This document shows, piece by piece, positions 8,513 to 17,490 of a DNA stretch of 64,000 nucleotides; position 1 is the first letter of the stretch; every line of letters begins with the position of its first letter. Below the pieces are notes generated by a model, which had not been told where the DNA came from, ran no database searches, and saw only the letters and a program-made list of their open reading frames with translations. Source of the DNA: Halobaculum gomorrense (GTDB taxonomy: Archaea; Halobacteriota; Halobacteria; Halobacteriales; Haloferacaceae); assembly GCF_900129775.1 (NCBI RefSeq), contig NZ_FQWV01000002.1, forward strand, positions 434,001 through 498,000, given 5' to 3'. The translations under genes were made by a program, and so were the position numbers.

Positions 8513-8788
8513 ATGGTTGTAGAGACTATCGCGTTCGCGCTGTTCGCCCTCGTCACTGTGGGGAGCAGTCTGGGCGTGGTGCTCGTGGAAGACGTGTGGC
8601 ACTCCGCGCTCTTCCTCGGGGCCGCGCTCCTCAGCGTCGCGGTGCACTACGTGATGTTGCAGGCGGAGTTCCTGGCCGCCATGCAGATCCTCGTCTACGT
8701 GGGCGGGGTTCTGGTGTTGATCACGTTCGCCGTGATGCTGGTGCGCAGGGAGGGTGAACCGGAGGCAATGGAGGTGTTCGACGCGTGA
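8513..8788 (+). CDS. nuoJ1: NuoJ N-terminal half (split subunit J, part 1)
   Basis: NuoJ is a membrane subunit of the proton-pumping arm. This 91-residue protein covers only its first three helices and contains EFLAAMQILVYVGGVLVLITFAVML, the pi-bulge helix region with the conserved YVGG. The rest of NuoJ is supplied by the next gene, which overlaps by 4 nt. A split NuoJ is, to my knowledge, usual in haloarchaea, so this is not a recent frameshift. The ATG at 8513 is preceded by a ribosome-binding-like GGGAG. Confidence 0.88.
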   Translation: MVVETIAFALFALVTVGSSLGVVLVEDVWHSALFLGAALLSVAVHYVMLQAEFLAAMQILVYVGGVLVLITFAVMLVRREGEPEAMEVFDA

Positions 8789-9192
8789 GCGACGCCGACT
8801 CGGGGTCGCGTCCGCGGCTGAAGCTCGGGGGGCACTTAGCTCCGGGGCTGGCCGCGGTCGCGCTGTTCGGCGTCCTCGCGCTCGTGTTCCTGCGGGCCTC
8901 TTTCGGCGAGGCCGCGGGCTTCGAGCAGGGCGCGTCGATCACCGCCGCGATCGGCTACGCGATGTTCGACATCGACGCGGGCGCGGTACCCGGCGAGTCG
9001 ATGCTCGTGGCCTTCGAGATTATCGACCTCGTGCTGGTCGCGGCGCTCGCGGGCGCGGTCATGCTCGCGCGCACCGGCGCCGGCGCCAGCGTCGTGACGG
9101 CGCTGACCGACGGGGGAAGAGACTCCGAGTCGGCCACGATCGCCGACTCGGTGCGTGAGCTTCGCGACACGCTCCGCGGGGGTGAGGAGTGA
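8785..9192 (+). CDS. nuoJ2: NuoJ C-terminal half (split subunit J, part 2)
   Basis: This 135-residue protein has two or three hydrophobic segments (residues 18-36 and 67-90) and an acidic tail. It lacks the YVGG motif but fits the C-terminal helices of NuoJ by position and size. The GTG start overlaps the end of nuoJ1 by 4 nt, and its stop overlaps the start of nuoK, so the pair is translationally coupled. Sequence conservation in this half is low; the call rests largely on context. Confidence 0.8.
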   Translation: MSDADSGSRPRLKLGGHLAPGLAAVALFGVLALVFLRASFGEAAGFEQGASITAAIGYAMFDIDAGAVPGESMLVAFEIIDLVLVAALAGAVMLARTGAGASVVTALTDGGRDSESATIADSVRELRDTLRGGEE

Positions 9193-9494
9193 TGGTGCCG
9201 CCGCAGTATTACCTTGTCCTCGCGGCCGCCGTGTTCTGTATCGGCGTGTTCGGCCTGCTCACGCGCAAGAACGCGCTGCTGTTCCTGATGTCGGTCGAAC
9301 TCATGCTCAACGCCGCGAACATCAACCTCGTCGCATTCTCCTACTACTGGGGGAACGTGACGGGCCAGACGTTCGGGCTGTTCACGATGGCGCTCGCGGC
9401 CGCGGAGGTCGCGGTCGGCATCGGGATCATCCTCGTGCTGTACCGCAACTTCAAGGACGTGGACGTGACCGAAGCGGCGACGATGAGGTGGTAA
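9192..9494 (+). CDS. nuoK: NADH-quinone oxidoreductase-like subunit K
   Basis: NuoK is a three-helix MrpC-like membrane subunit with buried glutamates used in proton transfer. The 100-residue protein shows GLLTRKNALLFLMSVELMLNAANIN, with the key Glu in SVELMLNA, and a second Glu in ALAAAEVAVG. The ATG at 9192 overlaps the preceding stop. An in-frame GTG one codon earlier is possible but unnecessary. Confidence 0.94.
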   Translation: MVPPQYYLVLAAAVFCIGVFGLLTRKNALLFLMSVELMLNAANINLVAFSYYWGNVTGQTFGLFTMALAAAEVAVGIGIILVLYRNFKDVDVTEAATMRW

Positions 9495-9497
9495 GTT

Positions 9498-11549
9498 ATG
9501 GCAGGAATCTTTGACTTCGCGCCGGCCATCGTACTGCTCCCGTTCCTCTCGTTCCTGATCGCGGTCGGGACCGCCCTCTCGGGGCGCGACCTGCTGCCGA
9601 AGGGCGGCGCCATCCCCGGCATCGCCGCGACCGGCGGGTCGCTGGTGCTGTCGGTCGCGATGGCGGCCGCCGTCGCAGGGGGCGAGGTGTACGACGAAAC
9701 GATCTACGCGTGGGCCGCCGGGGCGGTCCCCGGCAGCGAGGGGCTCGAACTGACGTTCGGCGTCCTCATCGACCCGCTGTCGGCGATGATGCTCGTCATC
9801 GTGACGCTCATCGCGCTGCTGGTTCACGTGTTTTCTCTGGGGTACATGAACGACGACGGGCAGACCGGCCTTCCGCGCTACTACGCCGGCCTCGGGCTGT
9901 TCACCGCGTCCATGCTCGGGTTCGTCGTCGCCGACAACCTGCTCATGGCGTTCATGTTCTTCGAGCTGGTGGGGCTGTGCTCGTACCTCCTCATCGGCTT
10001 CCACTTCCGCGAGCCCGGCCCGCCGTCGGCCGCGAAGAAGGCGTTCCTCGTCACCCGCTTCGGTGACTACTTCTTCCTCGTCGGCGTCGTCGCCGTGTTC
10101 GCGACGTTCGGCACCGCCCAGTTCGTCGGCACCGAGTCGGCGCCGGGATTCCCGGTACTGGCCGAGCAGGCGCTCCACGGCGAGTTCACGGCGAACACGT
10201 TCCTCGGGCTCGGTCCCCAGGCGTGGTTCACCGTCGTCGGTCTGCTCGTGCTCGGCGGTGTAATCGGCAAGTCCGCGCAGTTCCCGCTGCACACGTGGCT
10301 GCCCGACGCGATGGAGGGTCCGACGCCGGTCTCGGCGCTCATCCACGCGGCGACGATGGTCGCGGCCGGCGTCTACCTCGTCGCGCGGATGTACGGCTTC
10401 TACGCCGTCTCGCCGACGGCGCTTGGCGTCATCGCGCTCGTCGGCGGCTTCACCGCGCTGTTCGCCGGGACGATGGGCGTCGTGAAGCGCGAACTGAAGC
10501 AGGTGCTCGCGTACTCGACCATCTCGCAGTACGGCTACATGATGCTCGCGCTCGGCGCGGGCGGCTACGTGGCCGCGACGTTCCACCTGCTCACCCACGC
10601 GTTCTTCAAGGCGCTGCTGTTCCTCGGCGCCGGGTCGGTCATCCTCGCGATGCACCACAACGAGAACATGTGGGACATGGGCGGGCTGAAGGACAAGATG
10701 CCCGTCACCTACTACTCGTTCCTCGCCGGGTCGCTGGCGCTGGCGGGAATTTTCCCGTTCGCCGGCTTCTGGTCGAAAGATGAGATCCTCTTCGAGACGC
10801 TCGTCCACGGGCTGGGCGGCTCGCCACTGCTGCTGCTGGGCTACGCGTTCGGCCTGCTGGCGGTGCCCGTCACCGCGTTCTACACGTTCCGGATGGTGTA
10901 TCTCACCTTCCACGGTGAGCCTCGGACGGAACAGGCGGAGTCGCCGGAGCCGGTCCGCTGGAACGTGAAGGGGCCGCTCGCGGTGCTTGGCGTCCTCGCG
11001 ACGGTCGCGGGCGCGGTCAACCTCGCGCCGGTGGCCGTCCTCACGGGCGCGCACGTAGACTTCCTCCACTCGTGGCTCGACGGCGGCTTCTCGGCGCTCA
11101 CCGTCCACCACTACGAGGAGATCGACCCGTACGCGTCGGCCTACCTCGGCGGCGAGGTGACGACGGTCCTGCTCGGTGCCGCGGTGTCGCTCGGCCTCGC
11201 GCTGTTGGGTCTGGGACTCGCGTACCGGCTGTACGCGGTGCCGGAGCCGGTCGAGCACACGGACAAGCTCGGCTCGGTCAAGGGCCTGCTGTACGACAAC
11301 TACTACCAAGACGAGTATCAGGTGTACCTCGCGAACCGGGTCGTCCTCCCGCTGGCCCGCGCCGCGGACACCTTCGACCAGGGCGTCATCGACGGCGCGG
11401 TCAACGCCGTCTCCAGCGTGAGCCTGTTTTCGGGCTCGCGGATCCGGCGTATCCAGACGGGCGTGGTGAGTAACTACGCGGCGCTCGTGACGCTGGGGCT
11501 GACGGCGCTGCTTGTCGTCTTCGGCGTTCTCGGGGGGTGGTTACTGTGA
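9498..11549 (+). CDS. nuoL: NADH-quinone oxidoreductase-like subunit L
   Basis: NuoL is the distal antiporter-like proton-pumping subunit with a long lateral helix. The 683-residue protein has the core motifs FFELVGLCSYLLIGF, GKSAQFPLHTWLPDAMEGPTPVSALIHAATMV and KRELKQVLAYSTISQYGYMM, including the conserved Lys and His of the half-channels. The C-terminal part (after residue 480) is less conserved and carries the lateral helix. The stop overlaps the nuoM start (GTGA). Confidence 0.95.
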   Translation: MAGIFDFAPAIVLLPFLSFLIAVGTALSGRDLLPKGGAIPGIAATGGSLVLSVAMAAAVAGGEVYDETIYAWAAGAVPGSEGLELTFGVLIDPLSAMMLVIVTLIALLVHVFSLGYMNDDGQTGLPRYYAGLGLFTASMLGFVVADNLLMAFMFFELVGLCSYLLIGFHFREPGPPSAAKKAFLVTRFGDYFFLVGVVAVFATFGTAQFVGTESAPGFPVLAEQALHGEFTANTFLGLGPQAWFTVVGLLVLGGVIGKSAQFPLHTWLPDAMEGPTPVSALIHAATMVAAGVYLVARMYGFYAVSPTALGVIALVGGFTALFAGTMGVVKRELKQVLAYSTISQYGYMMLALGAGGYVAATFHLLTHAFFKALLFLGAGSVILAMHHNENMWDMGGLKDKMPVTYYSFLAGSLALAGIFPFAGFWSKDEILFETLVHGLGGSPLLLLGYAFGLLAVPVTAFYTFRMVYLTFHGEPRTEQAESPEPVRWNVKGPLAVLGVLATVAGAVNLAPVAVLTGAHVDFLHSWLDGGFSALTVHHYEEIDPYASAYLGGEVTTVLLGAAVSLGLALLGLGLAYRLYAVPEPVEHTDKLGSVKGLLYDNYYQDEYQVYLANRVVLPLARAADTFDQGVIDGAVNAVSSVSLFSGSRIRRIQTGVVSNYAALVTLGLTALLVVFGVLGGWLL

Positions 11550-13078
11550 TAATCGAAGCACTCATCGGAGTGACGTTCCTCGCCGCGCTGGTCGTCATGC
11601 TGGCGCCCGACGAGTACGCAGGCAAGCTCGCGTTCGCGCTGAGCCTCCTGCCGGTCGCCGGGAGCCTGTGGATGTGGGCCGGCTTCGACGCCGGCGGGAA
11701 CGCGCTCATGGCCGGGAGCATCGCCTACCAGACGCAACTCGACTGGCTGACCGTCGCCGGCTACGACCTGCAGTGGTTCGTCGGCGTCGACGGGATCAGC
11801 CTCCCGCTGGTCGTCCTCTCGACGGTGCTGTCCTCGCTGGCGATCGTGTCGGCGTGGACGCCCATCGACACCCGACAGTCGCAGTTCTACGGGCTCATGC
11901 TGTTCATGGAGGCGAACCTCCTGGGCGTGTTCACCGCGCTCGACTTCTTTTTGTGGTTCGTCTTCTGGGAGGCCGTGCTGGTGCCGATGTACTTCCTCAT
12001 CGGCGTGTGGGGCGGCCCGCGCCGGAAGTACGCCGCGATCAAGTTCTTCGTCTACACGAACATCGCCAGCCTCGTCATGTTCATCGGGTTCATGGCGCTG
12101 GTGTTCAACCTCCCCGTCAGCTCCTTTGGGCTGCCGGAGATAACGCAGGCGCTCCAGGCGGGCAAACTGTCCGGGTTCGTCGGGCTCGACCCGGCGACGC
12201 TGAAGCTCGCCGCCTTCACGGCCATGTTCGCGGGCTTCGCGGTCAAGGTGCCCATCGTCCCGTTCCACACGTGGCTGCCGGACGCCCACGTCGAGGCGCC
12301 CACGCCGGTGTCGGTGATGCTGGCGGGCGTCCTCCTGAAGATGGGGACGTACGCGCTGCTGCGCTTCAACTTCACCATGCTGCCTGATGTGGCGACCCGA
12401 CCGCTCGTGGCGACGGTCATCGCGGCCGTCGCCGTCGTCTCGGTCATCTACGGCGCGATGCTCGCGCTGGCCCAGCAGGACCTCAAACGCATTGTCGCGT
12501 ACTCCTCCGTCTCGTCGATGGGGTACGTCATCCTCGGCCTCATCGCCTACACGGGGCTGGGGATCGGCGGCGCGACGTTCCAGATGGTCGCCCACGGCCT
12601 CATCTCTGGGCTGATGTTCATGGCGGTCGGCGTCATCTACAACGTCACCCACACGCGCATGGTGGGCGACATGTCCGGGATGGCCGACCGGATGCCGGTC
12701 ACGGTGGGAATCCTCGTCGCCGGCGCGTTCGGCTACATGGGCCTCCCGCTCATGGCCGGCTTCGCCGCCGAGTACTTCATCTTCCAAGGCGCGTTCGCCT
12801 CCACGGTGATCCCGTCGGCGCCGCTGTTCACCGCGGCGTCGATGTTCGGCATCGTCATCGTGGCGGGCTACCTGCTGTTCGCGATGCAGCGCACGCTGTT
12901 CGGGGAGTTTTCCCTCGAGACGGACTACGAGGTGCGCCGCGCGCACTTCCACGACGTGGCGCCGCTGGCGGTGCTGCTGCTGTGCACCATCGCGCTCGGC
13001 GTCGCACCCAACATCTTCTTCGAGATGATCACTGACGCGATCGAGCCGGTCGTCGCGGTCGTCGGGGGTGGTGCCTGA
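11546..13078 (+). CDS. nuoM: NADH-quinone oxidoreductase-like subunit M
   Basis: NuoM is the second antiporter-like proton-pumping subunit. The 510-residue protein shows FFLWFVFWEAVLVPMYFLIGVWGG with the key Glu, FHTWLPDAHVEAPTPVSVMLAGVLLKMGTY, and LKRIVAYSSVSSMGYV. I chose the GTG at 11546 because it overlaps the nuoL stop as GTGA; another in-frame GTG lies 9 nt upstream. nuoN overlaps its last base. Confidence 0.94.
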   Translation: MIIEALIGVTFLAALVVMLAPDEYAGKLAFALSLLPVAGSLWMWAGFDAGGNALMAGSIAYQTQLDWLTVAGYDLQWFVGVDGISLPLVVLSTVLSSLAIVSAWTPIDTRQSQFYGLMLFMEANLLGVFTALDFFLWFVFWEAVLVPMYFLIGVWGGPRRKYAAIKFFVYTNIASLVMFIGFMALVFNLPVSSFGLPEITQALQAGKLSGFVGLDPATLKLAAFTAMFAGFAVKVPIVPFHTWLPDAHVEAPTPVSVMLAGVLLKMGTYALLRFNFTMLPDVATRPLVATVIAAVAVVSVIYGAMLALAQQDLKRIVAYSSVSSMGYVILGLIAYTGLGIGGATFQMVAHGLISGLMFMAVGVIYNVTHTRMVGDMSGMADRMPVTVGILVAGAFGYMGLPLMAGFAAEYFIFQGAFASTVIPSAPLFTAASMFGIVIVAGYLLFAMQRTLFGEFSLETDYEVRRAHFHDVAPLAVLLLCTIALGVAPNIFFEMITDAIEPVVAVVGGGA

Positions 13079-14586
13079 TGGAGCCCGCGCTCTTGCAGGC
13101 CGATCAGCTCCCCACGTGGACCGCGCTCGCCCCGGTACTGGCGCTCGCGGTGACGGGCCTGCTGCTGCTCGTCATCGACAGCATCGACCCGAACGACACG
13201 CGGCCGACGCTGCTGGCCGGCGTCGGCACCGTCGGCGCGCTCGCCGCACTGGGCCTGGCCGGCTGGTTCCTCTCGGCCGGCACCGGGCAGCCGAGCACGA
13301 ACGGCGCCATCACGCTCTACGGCGATGCGCTGATCGTCGATGGGATGACGCTGTTCTTCCAGGCGCTGTTCGCCTCCGTGACCGCGCTCGTCGTGGTCGC
13401 GAGCTACGACTACCTCCGCGGTCGCGCCTACCAGGCGGAGTTCTACGCGCTGATGCTGTTCGCGGCGACCGGGATGGCGCTGATGGCGGCCGCCAACTCG
13501 CTGGCCGTCGCGTTCGTCGCGCTCGAACTCGCATCGCTTCCGTCGTACGCCCTCGTCGCGTTCCTGAAGCGCGACACGGGCTCGGTTGAGGCGGGGCTGA
13601 AGTACTTCCTCATCGGCGCGCTGTCGTCGGCGGTGTTCGCCTTCGGCATCTCGCTGGTGTACGCCGCGACCGGCAGCCTCCTGCTGCCGGACGTGTACGA
13701 GGCGCTCGCGGGCGATCTCACGGGGCTCACCGGCGTCGCCGGCGTCGGCATCCTGATGGTCGCCGGCGGCTTCGCGTTCAAGACCGCCTCCGTCCCGTTC
13801 CACTTCTGGGCACCGGAGGCGTACGAGGGCGCGCCCGCGCCCGTCTCCGGGTTCCTCTCGTCGGCGTCGAAGGCAGCCGGCTTCGCGGTCGCGTTCCGCG
13901 TGTTCGTCACCGGCTTCCCGCTCGAGGCCGGCGTCGACTGGGTGCTCCTGTTCCAGGTGCTCGCGGTCGTCACGATGACGCTGGGTAACTTCGCCGCGGC
14001 GACCCAGGAGGAGGTCAAGCGAATGCTCGCGTACTCCTCGATCGGGCACGCTGGCTACGCGCTCATCGGGCTGGCCGCGTTCACGGGCGCCGCCGGCGGC
14101 GACGTGCTCGGCGCGTCGATGGCGCACCTGCTCGTGTACGGCTTCATGAACACCGGGGCGTTCCTGTTCGTCGCGCTGGCCGAGCACTGGGGCGTCGGTC
14201 GGACGTTCGACGACTACGCCGGCCTGGCGAGCAAGGCGCCGGTGGCGTCGGTCGCCATGTCGGTGTTCATGTTCTCGCTGGCGGGGCTGCCCCCGTTCGG
14301 CGGGTTCTTCTCGAAGTACTTCCTGTTCATGGGCGCCGTCGACGCCGGCTTCTGGTGGCTGGCGGCCGTCGGCGCGGTCAACAGCGCGCTGTCGCTGTTC
14401 TACTACAGCCGCGTCGTGAAGGCGCTGTGGCTCGACGACGCGGTCAGCGAGTTCGAGCTCGGGTCGACGCCGACGGCGCTGTACGCCGCGGTCGTGTTCG
14501 CGGCGCTCGCGACGGTTCTGTTGTTGCCCGGCTTCGGGCCGGTCATCGAGACGGCCCAGTCGGCCGCGGCGGCGATCGTCCCGTAA
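13078..14586 (+). CDS. nuoN: NADH-quinone oxidoreductase-like subunit N
   Basis: NuoN is the third antiporter-like subunit and closes the operon. The 502-residue protein has about fourteen helices with FVALELASLPSYALVAFLKRD, KTASVPFHFWAPEAYEGAPAPVSGF and VKRMLAYSSIGHAGYALIG. The start codon shares a base with the nuoM stop (TGATG). No NADH-binding subunits (NuoE, F or G) are present, as in other haloarchaea, so the electron donor is not NADH through the usual module. Confidence 0.95.
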   Translation: MEPALLQADQLPTWTALAPVLALAVTGLLLLVIDSIDPNDTRPTLLAGVGTVGALAALGLAGWFLSAGTGQPSTNGAITLYGDALIVDGMTLFFQALFASVTALVVVASYDYLRGRAYQAEFYALMLFAATGMALMAAANSLAVAFVALELASLPSYALVAFLKRDTGSVEAGLKYFLIGALSSAVFAFGISLVYAATGSLLLPDVYEALAGDLTGLTGVAGVGILMVAGGFAFKTASVPFHFWAPEAYEGAPAPVSGFLSSASKAAGFAVAFRVFVTGFPLEAGVDWVLLFQVLAVVTMTLGNFAAATQEEVKRMLAYSSIGHAGYALIGLAAFTGAAGGDVLGASMAHLLVYGFMNTGAFLFVALAEHWGVGRTFDDYAGLASKAPVASVAMSVFMFSLAGLPPFGGFFSKYFLFMGAVDAGFWWLAAVGAVNSALSLFYYSRVVKALWLDDAVSEFELGSTPTALYAAVVFAALATVLLLPGFGPVIETAQSAAAAIVP

Positions 14587-14759: not shown

Positions 14760-16217
14760 ATGCGTCGGCTGGTGCTCGGCTGTGGAACAGTCGGCAGCGA
14801 TATCATCGAGGCGCTGACCGGCCGGACCGGCGACCTGCACGTGATCACCGACGACAGCGGTCGAGTGTCCGCGCTGCGCGACGAACACGTCGCGGCGCTG
14901 GAAGCCGACCCCCGCGACCCGGACAACTACCCCGATCACGCCAACCTCGTCGTCGTGGCGGGGGCGTCGGCGACGGCGAACCTCACGGTCGCCGACCGCG
15001 CGCGAGAGCGCTTCCCCGACGCGGCCCTCGTCGCGTACGCCGGCGACGACGCGACCGAGGCGGACCTCCGGGCGCTGCGCGAGCTGGCGGACCGCGTCAT
15101 CGACCCGATCGGCGTCGTCGCCGACCGCGTGCTCGACGTGGCGACGGGTGCGACAGCAGAGCGCCTTCGCGGGCTCGTGCGGACGCTGCGCTCCGTCGAG
15201 GGGACGCTGGCGGTCGTCGCCCACGACAACCCGGACCCAGACGCGATCGCCTCGGCGATCGCGCTGGTTCGGATCGCCCGATTCGCCGGCACCGACGCCG
15301 AAGCGTGCTACTACGGCGACATCTCCCACCAGGAAAACCGCGCGCTCGTCAACCTCCTCGACATCGAGATGCGCCAGCTCGACCCGGACACGGACCCCCG
15401 CGAGGAGTTCGCCGGGTTCGCGCTCGTCGATCACTCGCGGCCGGGCGTCAACGACTCGCTCCCGGAGGAGATCGATCCGCTCGTCGTGATCGACCATCAT
15501 CCGCCGCGCGAGCCCATTGACGCCGAGTTCCTCGACCTGCGCGACGACGTGGGCGCCACGTCGACGCTGCTGGTCGAGTACCTCGACCGCCTCGGGGTGA
15601 CGCCGGACACGCAGGTGGCGACCGCGCTGCTGTACGGCATCCGGATCGACACCAAAGACTTCACGCGGGAGGTGAGCGAGGCGGACTTCGACGCCGCGGC
15701 GTCGCTGCTGTCGCACGCGGACGCGTCGGTGCTCGACCGGGTGGAGTCGCCGAGCTTCGACCCCGCGGTGCTGAACGTGCTCGCGCGCGCCATCGGGGCG
15801 CGTGAGCAGCGCGGCTCGGTCGTCGCCTCCTGCGTCGGGGAGATCGCCGACCGCGACGCGCTCGCACAGGCGGCCGAGCGACTGCTCGACATGGAGGGCG
15901 TCAACACGACTCTGGTGTACGGCTACCGCGACGGGGTGGTCTACGCGTCCGGCCGGACGCGCGGTACCGACCTCGACTTGGGTGAGACGCTTCGCGACGC
16001 GCTCGATCAGATCGGCTCCGCGGGCGGGCACGCCGACATGGCCGGCGCGCAAATCTCGCTGGGCATCCTCGGCGACGTGGGCGAGGACTCGAAGGAGTCG
16101 CTGACCGAAATCGTCCGCGACATCGTCGCCGGTCGGTTCTTCGAAACGCTCGAGGACGCTCCGGCGACACCCACCCGTTCGGCCGATCGAGCGGTCTCGT
16201 TCCCCGACGAGGGCTGA
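14760..16217 (+). CDS. TrkA_N-DHH-DHHA1 phosphoesterase
   Basis: This 485-residue protein joins a Rossmann nucleotide-binding domain of TrkA/RCK type (residues 1-115, starting LVLGCGTVGSDI) to a DHH phosphoesterase. Metal-binding motifs are HDNPDPDA (155-162), DHS (224-226) and DHH (245-247). The DHHA1 substrate-binding motif GGHADMAG lies near residue 423. All catalytic residues appear intact. DHH-DHHA1 enzymes cleave short oligonucleotides or cyclic dinucleotides; here the substrate is unknown, and cyclic di-AMP is a reasonable guess because RCK-linked domains relate to potassium control. A TATA-like GGGTTTTCC about 27 nt upstream supports the ATG at 14760. The gene follows the nuo operon but has its own promoter. 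Confidence 0.88.
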   Translation: MRRLVLGCGTVGSDIIEALTGRTGDLHVITDDSGRVSALRDEHVAALEADPRDPDNYPDHANLVVVAGASATANLTVADRARERFPDAALVAYAGDDATEADLRALRELADRVIDPIGVVADRVLDVATGATAERLRGLVRTLRSVEGTLAVVAHDNPDPDAIASAIALVRIARFAGTDAEACYYGDISHQENRALVNLLDIEMRQLDPDTDPREEFAGFALVDHSRPGVNDSLPEEIDPLVVIDHHPPREPIDAEFLDLRDDVGATSTLLVEYLDRLGVTPDTQVATALLYGIRIDTKDFTREVSEADFDAAASLLSHADASVLDRVESPSFDPAVLNVLARAIGAREQRGSVVASCVGEIADRDALAQAAERLLDMEGVNTTLVYGYRDGVVYASGRTRGTDLDLGETLRDALDQIGSAGGHADMAGAQISLGILGDVGEDSKESLTEIVRDIVAGRFFETLEDAPATPTRSADRAVSFPDEG

Positions 16218-16267
16218 TCGCCGCCGAGAGGAACGCTTACCTCGGCGCCGTCCGAACCGAGCGACGA

Positions 16268-17098
16268 ATGAACGACGGCGCGAGCGAGCTGTCGGCGCCC
16301 GAAGTTAAGGGGTACATGACGCGCGAGGTGGCGACGGTGTCGCCCGACGACACGGTGCGCGAGGCCGTCGATCGGATCCTCGATAACAACCACAACGGTT
16401 TCCCCGTGACTGACGGACGCACCGTGGTGGGGTTCGTCTCCGCGCGCGATCTGCTGTCGGCCGACGAGGACGCCCCCCTGTTCACCGTCATGAGCGACGA
16501 CATCATCGTCGCGCACCCGGAGATGGACGTCAACGATGCCGCGCGAGTGATCCTCCGATCGGGCATCCAGAAGCTCCCGGTCGTCGACGACGCGGGCAAC
16601 CTCGTGGGCATCATCTCCAACACCGACGTGATCCGCTCGCAGATCGAGCGCGCGACCCCGGAGAAGGTGGGAAAGCTGATGCACACGCTCGAGGAGATCC
16701 ACGGCGTCGCCACGAGCGAGGAGCGACGGGAGGTCCGCCTCGACGACCTTATCCCGACGCAGGCGCGGGTGTACGCCGACGAACTCGAAGGGCGGCGCTA
16801 CGAACTCGAACGGGGACTCGCCGAGCCGCTCGTCGTCATCGACAACCCCAGCGCCAGCGGCGAGATCGAAGACGACGGCACGCTCGTGCTCGCCGACGGT
16901 CACCACCGAGTGATGGCGGCCCACCGGCTCGGGATCAAGGAGATGGACGCGTACGTCATCGCCATCGCCGACCACGTCGAACTCGGCATGGAGAAGACGG
17001 CGCGCAAGGAGGGCCTCCAGTCGATCACCGATATCGAGGTGGTCGACTACGCGCGCCACCCACTGGTCGAGACGACGAAGCGGTTTCAAGACGAGTAG
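16268..17098 (+). CDS. CBS pair plus ParB/sulfiredoxin-like domain protein
   Basis: The 276-residue protein starts with two CBS domains (about 10-65 and 75-130), which usually sense adenosine nucleotides. A ParB/Srx-like domain (about 150-276) follows, with LIPTQARVY, GLAEPLVVIDN and LADGHHRVMAAHRLG. In DNA-partition ParB the last motif is GERR; the DGHHR form here instead resembles the archaeal free-serine kinase SerK and SbnI. It has no HTH, so a role in plasmid partition is unlikely. The likely function is a nucleotide-regulated small-molecule kinase, but this is inference. A TATA-like CGCTTACC about 27 nt upstream supports the start. Confidence 0.8.
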   Translation: MNDGASELSAPEVKGYMTREVATVSPDDTVREAVDRILDNNHNGFPVTDGRTVVGFVSARDLLSADEDAPLFTVMSDDIIVAHPEMDVNDAARVILRSGIQKLPVVDDAGNLVGIISNTDVIRSQIERATPEKVGKLMHTLEEIHGVATSEERREVRLDDLIPTQARVYADELEGRRYELERGLAEPLVVIDNPSASGEIEDDGTLVLADGHHRVMAAHRLGIKEMDAYVIAIADHVELGMEKTARKEGLQSITDIEVVDYARHPLVETTKRFQDE

Positions 17099-17118: not shown

Positions 17119-17361
17119 CTATCGGGATGACTCCTCGGACAGATCGAACGCCTCCTTCCAGTCCGTCACCAGTTCGTCCGCGCGCTCGCGGTCGCCGACC
17201 CGTTCGCGTCGGTAGCTGCGACCGTCGGGCGCCTGTTCGAGTCGGTCGAGCCGGACGACGTAGCTGCCGTCCGCGCGTTCGCGAACGCGCAGGGTCGCGT
17301 AGCCGTCCGCGCGTTCCCACTCGTCGTACCGCTCCGTGGTCTCGACCTCGCTCCATGGCAT
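17119..17361 (-). CDS. Small conserved haloarchaeal protein
   Basis: This 80-residue soluble, highly charged protein begins MPWSEVETTERYDEWERADGY and has alternating strands rich in Arg and Glu. It has no catalytic motif that I recognise. I believe it belongs to a haloarchaeal family of unknown function. The ATG at 17361 is preferred over an upstream TTG, because GAAGG-like sequence lies in front of it. It converges with the CBS-ParB gene and leaves only 20 bp between the two stop codons. Confidence 0.65.
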   Translation of the reverse strand: MPWSEVETTERYDEWERADGYATLRVRERADGSYVVRLDRLEQAPDGRSYRRERVGDRERADELVTDWKEAFDLSEESSR

Positions 17362-17490
17362 GGCCGTCCCTTCGGGTTCCCCCGTCGTCAACGCGGCGGT
17401 TACCGTTCGATCGGGACGCCCAGAACGGTCTCTCCGGTGCGGCGTGCGGTCCGTCGGAGCCGTGACGCGCCGCGAGTCGAACCGTGGCGG

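Follow-up and report, generated by a model that had tools for sequence, protein, structure and literature searches.

Two fused-domain genes downstream of nuoN

The window analysed here, a stretch of 64,000 nucleotides from Halobaculum gomorrense, carries two adjacent forward-strand genes behind the nuoJ, K, L, M and N genes of a complex-I-like operon (8785–14586, +; assigned by Pfam, nuoJ weakly). The first, which we call the DHH gene (14760–16217, +), begins 173 bases after the end of nuoN and encodes a predicted dinucleotide phosphodiesterase of 485 residues with the architecture TrkA_N-DHH-DHHA1, its start codon being backed by an alignment of relatives. Fifty bases further on lies the gene for a CBS-CBS-ParB-like protein of 276 residues (CBS-ParB; 16268–17098, +), downstream of which a small convergent gene (17119–17391, −) encodes a DUF7543 protein. 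An earlier reading made from the letters alone (the sequence-only reading) had picked out the two genes as domain fusions, an observation confirmed by their open reading frames at these coordinates and by the Pfam domains found in them; the upstream nuoJKLMN genes were absent from that reading.

All three domains of the DHH protein exceed the Pfam cut-offs. The TrkA_N (Rossmann) domain (residues 4–116; 14769–15107, +; PF02254, 3.6e-10) carries GCGTVG at residues 7–12 and is followed by the DHH domain (residues 151–294; 15210–15641, +; PF01368, 1.3e-11) and the DHHA1 domain (residues 353–456; 15816–16127, +; PF02272, 3e-13). The DHH motifs had been described as intact, and they are: H155-x3-D159-P-D161, D224, D245-H246-H247 (codons at 15492–15500), D297 (15648–15650, just outside the Pfam DHH match) and, within DHHA1, GGH at 422–424 are all present. 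TrkA_N was the sole TrkA part detected, Pfam finding no RCK_C (TrkA_C) domain in the protein. In known TrkA/RCK potassium regulators RCK_C is the part that binds c-di-AMP.

In CBS-ParB, a CBS pair (residues about 13–130; 16304–16657, +; PF00571, 2.6e-29, in two stretches) precedes a ParB-like domain of the ParBc_2 type (residues about 155–232; 16730–16963, +) with the motifs PTQ (Q165 at 16760–16762), GLAEP and DGHHR (residues 210–214, 16895–16909), the last of these as had been noted. The CBS pair is over its cut-off, and ParBc_2 matches 14 of 14 family members (best 4.1e-7), the window protein lying just under the Pfam cut-off at 1.1e-3; these are the components of the archaeal CBS-ParB fusion. 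ParB_N and DUF1015 give weaker matches, DUF1015 being weak in the window protein also. Pfam found no match to the helix-turn-helix DNA-binding domain of canonical ParB, in agreement with the earlier view that this is not a DNA-partition ParB; nor was a parA gene recognised among the neighbouring genes of the window. The closest named relatives are from Halobaculum (88–89% identity); haloarchaeal members share about 70% identity, and euryarchaeal members as a whole about 50%. Among 35 members DGHHR is invariant, PTQ, DEL, GR, GL.EP and HPL are invariant or nearly so, D120 is invariant and D61 nearly invariant. A conserved CBS aspartate usually contacts the ribose of the ligand, and because D61 and D120 are conserved it is plausible that the CBS pair binds adenine nucleotides, a candidate function that the sequence-only reading had also proposed and for which the usual ligand-site residues are in place. 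The c-di-AMP-binding CBS protein CbpB was rejected as an identity (NCBIfam NF041630, 31.4 bits against a cut-off of 125). The structure model of CBS-ParB is poor (pLDDT 65), and the best 50 matches in its fold search were all CBS-containing structures, with no ParB fold among them.

Intact and degenerate TrkA-DHH paralogues

The same genome encodes a second TrkA-DHH copy (C12:240655-242154; L251:653-2155), 11 kb from its diadenylate cyclase gene (C12:229444). In our trees the orthologues of the DHH gene form one clade and the second haloarchaeal copy groups with the single euryarchaeal TrkA-DHH, each of the two haloarchaeal clades having 100% support; the DHH-gene clade is a haloarchaeal side branch of the TrkA-DHH family. 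We scored the catalytic motif at eleven positions (155, 159, 161, 224, 245–247, 297 and 422–424). The full motif was present in 17/17 and 25/25 sequences of the DHH-gene clade (two sets that may overlap), in all six members of that clade checked from genus g2 and, with Glu allowed at 297, in 16/16 other euryarchaeal TrkA-DHH proteins. Of the 60 second-copy sequences, by contrast, not one has it; these come from 54 genomes by a hand count over the locus lists, and in 47 of the 54 DHH lacks its second His. Two alignments left out rows containing stop codons. From these residues we infer that the second copy has lost activity.

Nine genomes that carry both copies served to compare domain identities. 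The DHH-gene clade has 34% for TrkA_N where the second copy has 72%; for DHHA1 the values are 57% and 79%, and for DHH 63% and 66%. Taken with the motif counts, these values show that the second copy keeps its binding domains and the DHH-gene copy its catalytic residues. In two basal haloarchaeal families a degenerate TrkA-DHH is accompanied by an intact DHH-DHHA1 protein that lacks TrkA_N (L324, L326, L327 and L332). At two loci of genus g3 (L278 from G115, L279 from G138), a degenerate and an intact TrkA-DHH gene stand divergently side by side, adjoining CBS-ParB. Haloarchaea also carry a third DHH-DHHA1 protein, with an intact site and probably membrane-anchored, that could be a rival for the role of main phosphodiesterase. 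At L074:4207-5376 its gene stands directly upstream of the DHH-gene orthologue, and the protein has a hydrophobic segment at its N-terminus, a probable membrane anchor; the Halobaculum genome encodes a relative at C13:74098-75078.

We also followed the co-occurrence of TrkA-DHH (alignment A2) with diadenylate cyclase (PF02457) in 148 euryarchaeal genomes. The two occurred together in 130 and were jointly missing from 10, while each alone was absent in 4 (Fisher p = 9e-10, uncorrected). The association persists with family f33 counted once (p = 3e-5) and, in complete genomes, with the two joint-loss clades collapsed (p = 0.008). Within a single genus, g69, two genomes lack both genes (G201 and G225) and two have both (G158 and G253). 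Loss of TrkA-DHH and of the cyclase is thus mostly joint in euryarchaea, which is new; the co-occurrence, with few independent losses, ties the whole TrkA-DHH family, rather than the DHH-gene clade alone, to c-di-AMP.

Of solved sequences, the GdpP catalytic domain (1e-12) comes closest to the DHH protein, followed by the c-di-AMP phosphodiesterase 9n0l (2.3e-12) and then by a pyrophosphatase (1.3e-9) and NrnA (about 3e-7). The top fold matches of the AlphaFold2 model of the DHH protein (pLDDT 84) are the TM1595 phosphodiesterase, GdpP and DhhP. A phosphodiesterase role is the best-supported reading, with the substrate predicted from homology. The suggested link to potassium or a cyclic dinucleotide is supported in its second part, the nearest solved relatives acting on cyclic dinucleotides; the potassium link is weak, because TrkA_N, the least conserved part of the protein and missing from the intact protein of the basal families, drifts and RCK_C was not found. 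DHH-DHHA1 proteins often take pApA and short RNA, relatives often acting on several substrates, and the protein sequence cannot by itself tell c-di-AMP, pApA and nanoRNA apart. It is accordingly possible, if on balance unlikely, that the protein is mainly an NrnA-like nanoRNase or pAp phosphatase that recycles RNA of 2–5 nucleotides or pAp, with c-di-AMP as a side substrate. NrnA and Rv2837c are close to it in both sequence and fold, and the breadth of substrates in the family fits such a role; however, GdpP and the c-di-AMP phosphodiesterase score better, and a loss that tracks the cyclase is not predicted for a housekeeping nanoRNase.

Gene order and the pairing with CBS-ParB

The DHH query matches 144 of 146 sampled genomes of the order and all 122 complete ones, a count that takes in paralogues, so that universality of the orthologue is not established by it alone; the CBS-ParB query matches 142/146 and 122/122. 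Such conservation goes far beyond what chance would give. Both places are listed for 135 genomes and both lie on one contig in 131, in 110 of which the two genes are adjacent, on the same strand and less than 600 bases apart (median about 150). That the genes would prove to be neighbours in other haloarchaea, the check proposed by the sequence-only reading, is thereby borne out. Non-adjacency clusters in genus g2, the Halorubrum-like group, and in some others. The order nuoN-DHH-CBS-ParB occurs at 49 of 80 named loci and in most sampled families; four further loci show DHH-CBS-ParB with no nuoN seen, some of them at contig ends, and 26, many from Halorubrum, have CBS-ParB alone. In two sampled lineages (L073 and L082) CBS-ParB comes after nuoN and the DHH gene is absent from between them. 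A methylmalonyl-CoA mutase gene (cluster c3; L081:10170-12041, for example) lies a few genes from CBS-ParB at 9 of 20 sampled haloarchaeal loci.

At 20 loci from other euryarchaea CBS-ParB is not beside a DHH gene. At seven of these, from five families (L235, L237, L238 and L240–L243), it is closely followed, sometimes with overlap, by hisE, which encodes phosphoribosyl-ATP pyrophosphohydrolase (PRA-PH). In family f19 the cyclase and TrkA-DHH are present in 18/18 sampled members, and none of the matches listed there is a full-length CBS-ParB. The pairing seen in haloarchaea is thus lineage-specific, and this counts against the earlier proposal that the two genes together form one switch: there is no pairing at the loci sampled outside haloarchaea, and f19 keeps the cyclase and TrkA-DHH with no full-length CBS-ParB listed. 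We retain a joint switch, or co-regulation with nuo, as a hypothesis.

A stronger form of that hypothesis would make the DHH protein and CBS-ParB one module tied to the complex-I-like operon that uses adenine nucleotides or c-di-AMP to tune respiration or energy charge. The frequency of the three-gene order and the adjacency in 110/131 genomes are what such a module would predict, but a place next to complex-I genes may reflect no more than a common transcription unit. In L073 and L082, moreover, CBS-ParB stands by nuoN without a DHH gene, most of one genus has the two genes apart, and hisE takes the place beside CBS-ParB in some other euryarchaeal lineages. We consider this module improbable. 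An elaboration in which haloarchaea split an ancestral TrkA_N-DHH enzyme into an active phosphodiesterase, the DHH protein, and a pseudoenzyme that retains the Rossmann and DHHA1 domains and senses c-di-AMP or NAD(H)/ATP, possibly as a regulatory partner, and in which the two, with CBS-ParB, would link the complex-I operon to the levels of c-di-AMP and adenylates, is likewise a speculative extension with little probability.

A combined explanation and its relation to known systems

Two further assignments can be set against profile scores and aligned residues. A RecJ-like nuclease of DNA repair, or else a pyrophosphatase, is a very unlikely identity for the DHH protein: DHH family membership allows it, and HVO_0990 of Haloferax volcanii is placed under DNA recombination/repair and, like HVO_1690, is up under hypochlorite (PMC10294847), but the protein reaches just 12.6 bits for NCBIfam RecJ_archaeal (cut-off 360) and 50.9 for the Mn-dependent (family II) pyrophosphatase (cut-off 283).

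The sequence-only reading had likened CBS-ParB to SerK-type serine kinases, which would make it a SerK/SbnI-type kinase of free serine, with adenine nucleotides as the gate. SerK and SbnI (PDB 5x0b and 5uje) belong, like CBS-ParB, to the ParB/Srx fold family, and SerK has the DGHHR P-motif in common with it. A SerK sequence query reaches a CBS-ParB gene at E = 0.0016, pairwise hhalign gives a probability of 83%, and the CBS-ParB profile finds SerK marginally among PDB sequences (the E30Q mutant 5x0j, 0.4), as against 4.2e-4 for ParB 4umk. The comparison used a SerK sequence identical over 126 residues to PDB 1vk1, and also that of 5x0b. In these alignments SerK Glu30 falls opposite CBS-ParB Q165, which is Gln in 35/35 members. 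Glu30 is reportedly, in work by Nagata et al. of 2017, the catalytic base of SerK, and it is the residue replaced by Gln in PDB 5x0j and 5x0k and by Ala in 5x0e-g. Since Glu30 aligns with an invariant Gln, a SerK-type mechanism is unlikely for CBS-ParB. CBS-ParB differs further from SerK in its additional CBS pair, and ParBc_2 is the closer family match. Searches of other genomes with ParB_N and SerK found no SerK, and close SerK homologues are, according to the paper on SerK, limited to Thermococcales and Desulfurococcales (PMC5120207). Judged by its motifs, then, CBS-ParB is unlikely to be a SerK-type serine kinase, and a kinase gated by adenine nucleotides is the reading to which we give least credence.

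The explanation that we favour, with chances that we regard as evenly balanced, combines an intact DHH phosphodiesterase, split roles of the paralogues and a nucleotide-gated CBS-ParB that is not of the SerK type. Its domains, motifs, phylogeny, gene order and co-occurrence are established. The DHH protein, through a two-metal DHH centre of the Mn2+ type, would hydrolyse c-di-AMP, its product pApA, or both, to AMP, and would thereby oppose the diadenylate cyclase, whose gene lies in another part of the genome. An old duplication would have been followed by a division of roles, in which the DHH-gene copy kept its catalytic residues while its TrkA_N domain was free to drift, and the other copy, its nucleotide-binding domains kept and its catalytic motif partly lost, perhaps became a sensor or partner. 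The CBS pair would take adenine nucleotides and so gate the ParB-fold NTP-binding domain. We infer the substrate, the sensing, the way labour is divided and any contact of the DHH protein with CBS-ParB.

Among known enzymes, GdpP (5xsi), TM1595 (5o1u) and DhhP (9r7o) have the DHH-DHHA1 core, the metal-site motifs and GGH in common with the DHH protein. GdpP carries PAS/GGDEF domains and membrane segments, whereas the DHH protein has an N-terminal TrkA_N domain and a predicted substrate.

In Haloferax volcanii the c-di-AMP-degrading enzyme was reported as unknown in 2021 (PMC8646023), and HVO_0990, HVO_1690 and HVO_0756 are tabulated as predicted c-di-AMP phosphodiesterases, citing reference 332, in a part of PMC8305020 that gives no ranking of the three. 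HVO_0990 is very likely the orthologue of the DHH gene, its locus tag being close to that of nuoB (HVO_0979). We take the table's reference 332 (PubMed 32095817) to be He et al. 2020. As HVO_0990 is already a published candidate, the c-di-AMP idea for the DHH protein is not new; the contrast between intact and degenerate paralogues is, as are the findings that speak against CBS-ParB acting like SerK. Of the Haloferax candidates, the HVO_1690-type paralogue is here degenerate in its motif and the HVO_0990 type fully conserved, which sets a concrete order for testing them and predicts a pseudoenzyme among the TrkA-DHH paralogues.

Kaljevic et al. 2025 (PMC12704722) report CBS-ParB, in the part of their paper that deals with it, as the commonest archaeal ParB fusion, found mainly in Methanobacteriota and Haloarchaea, and describe it there without a function. 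The architecture and range of these fusions, as given there, are those of the window protein. To them we add the context of nuoN and the DHH gene in haloarchaea, that of hisE in some other lineages, and the change of E30 to Gln; the replacement of Glu and the neighbouring hisE together steer work on this widely conserved archaeal family away from serine kinase activity.
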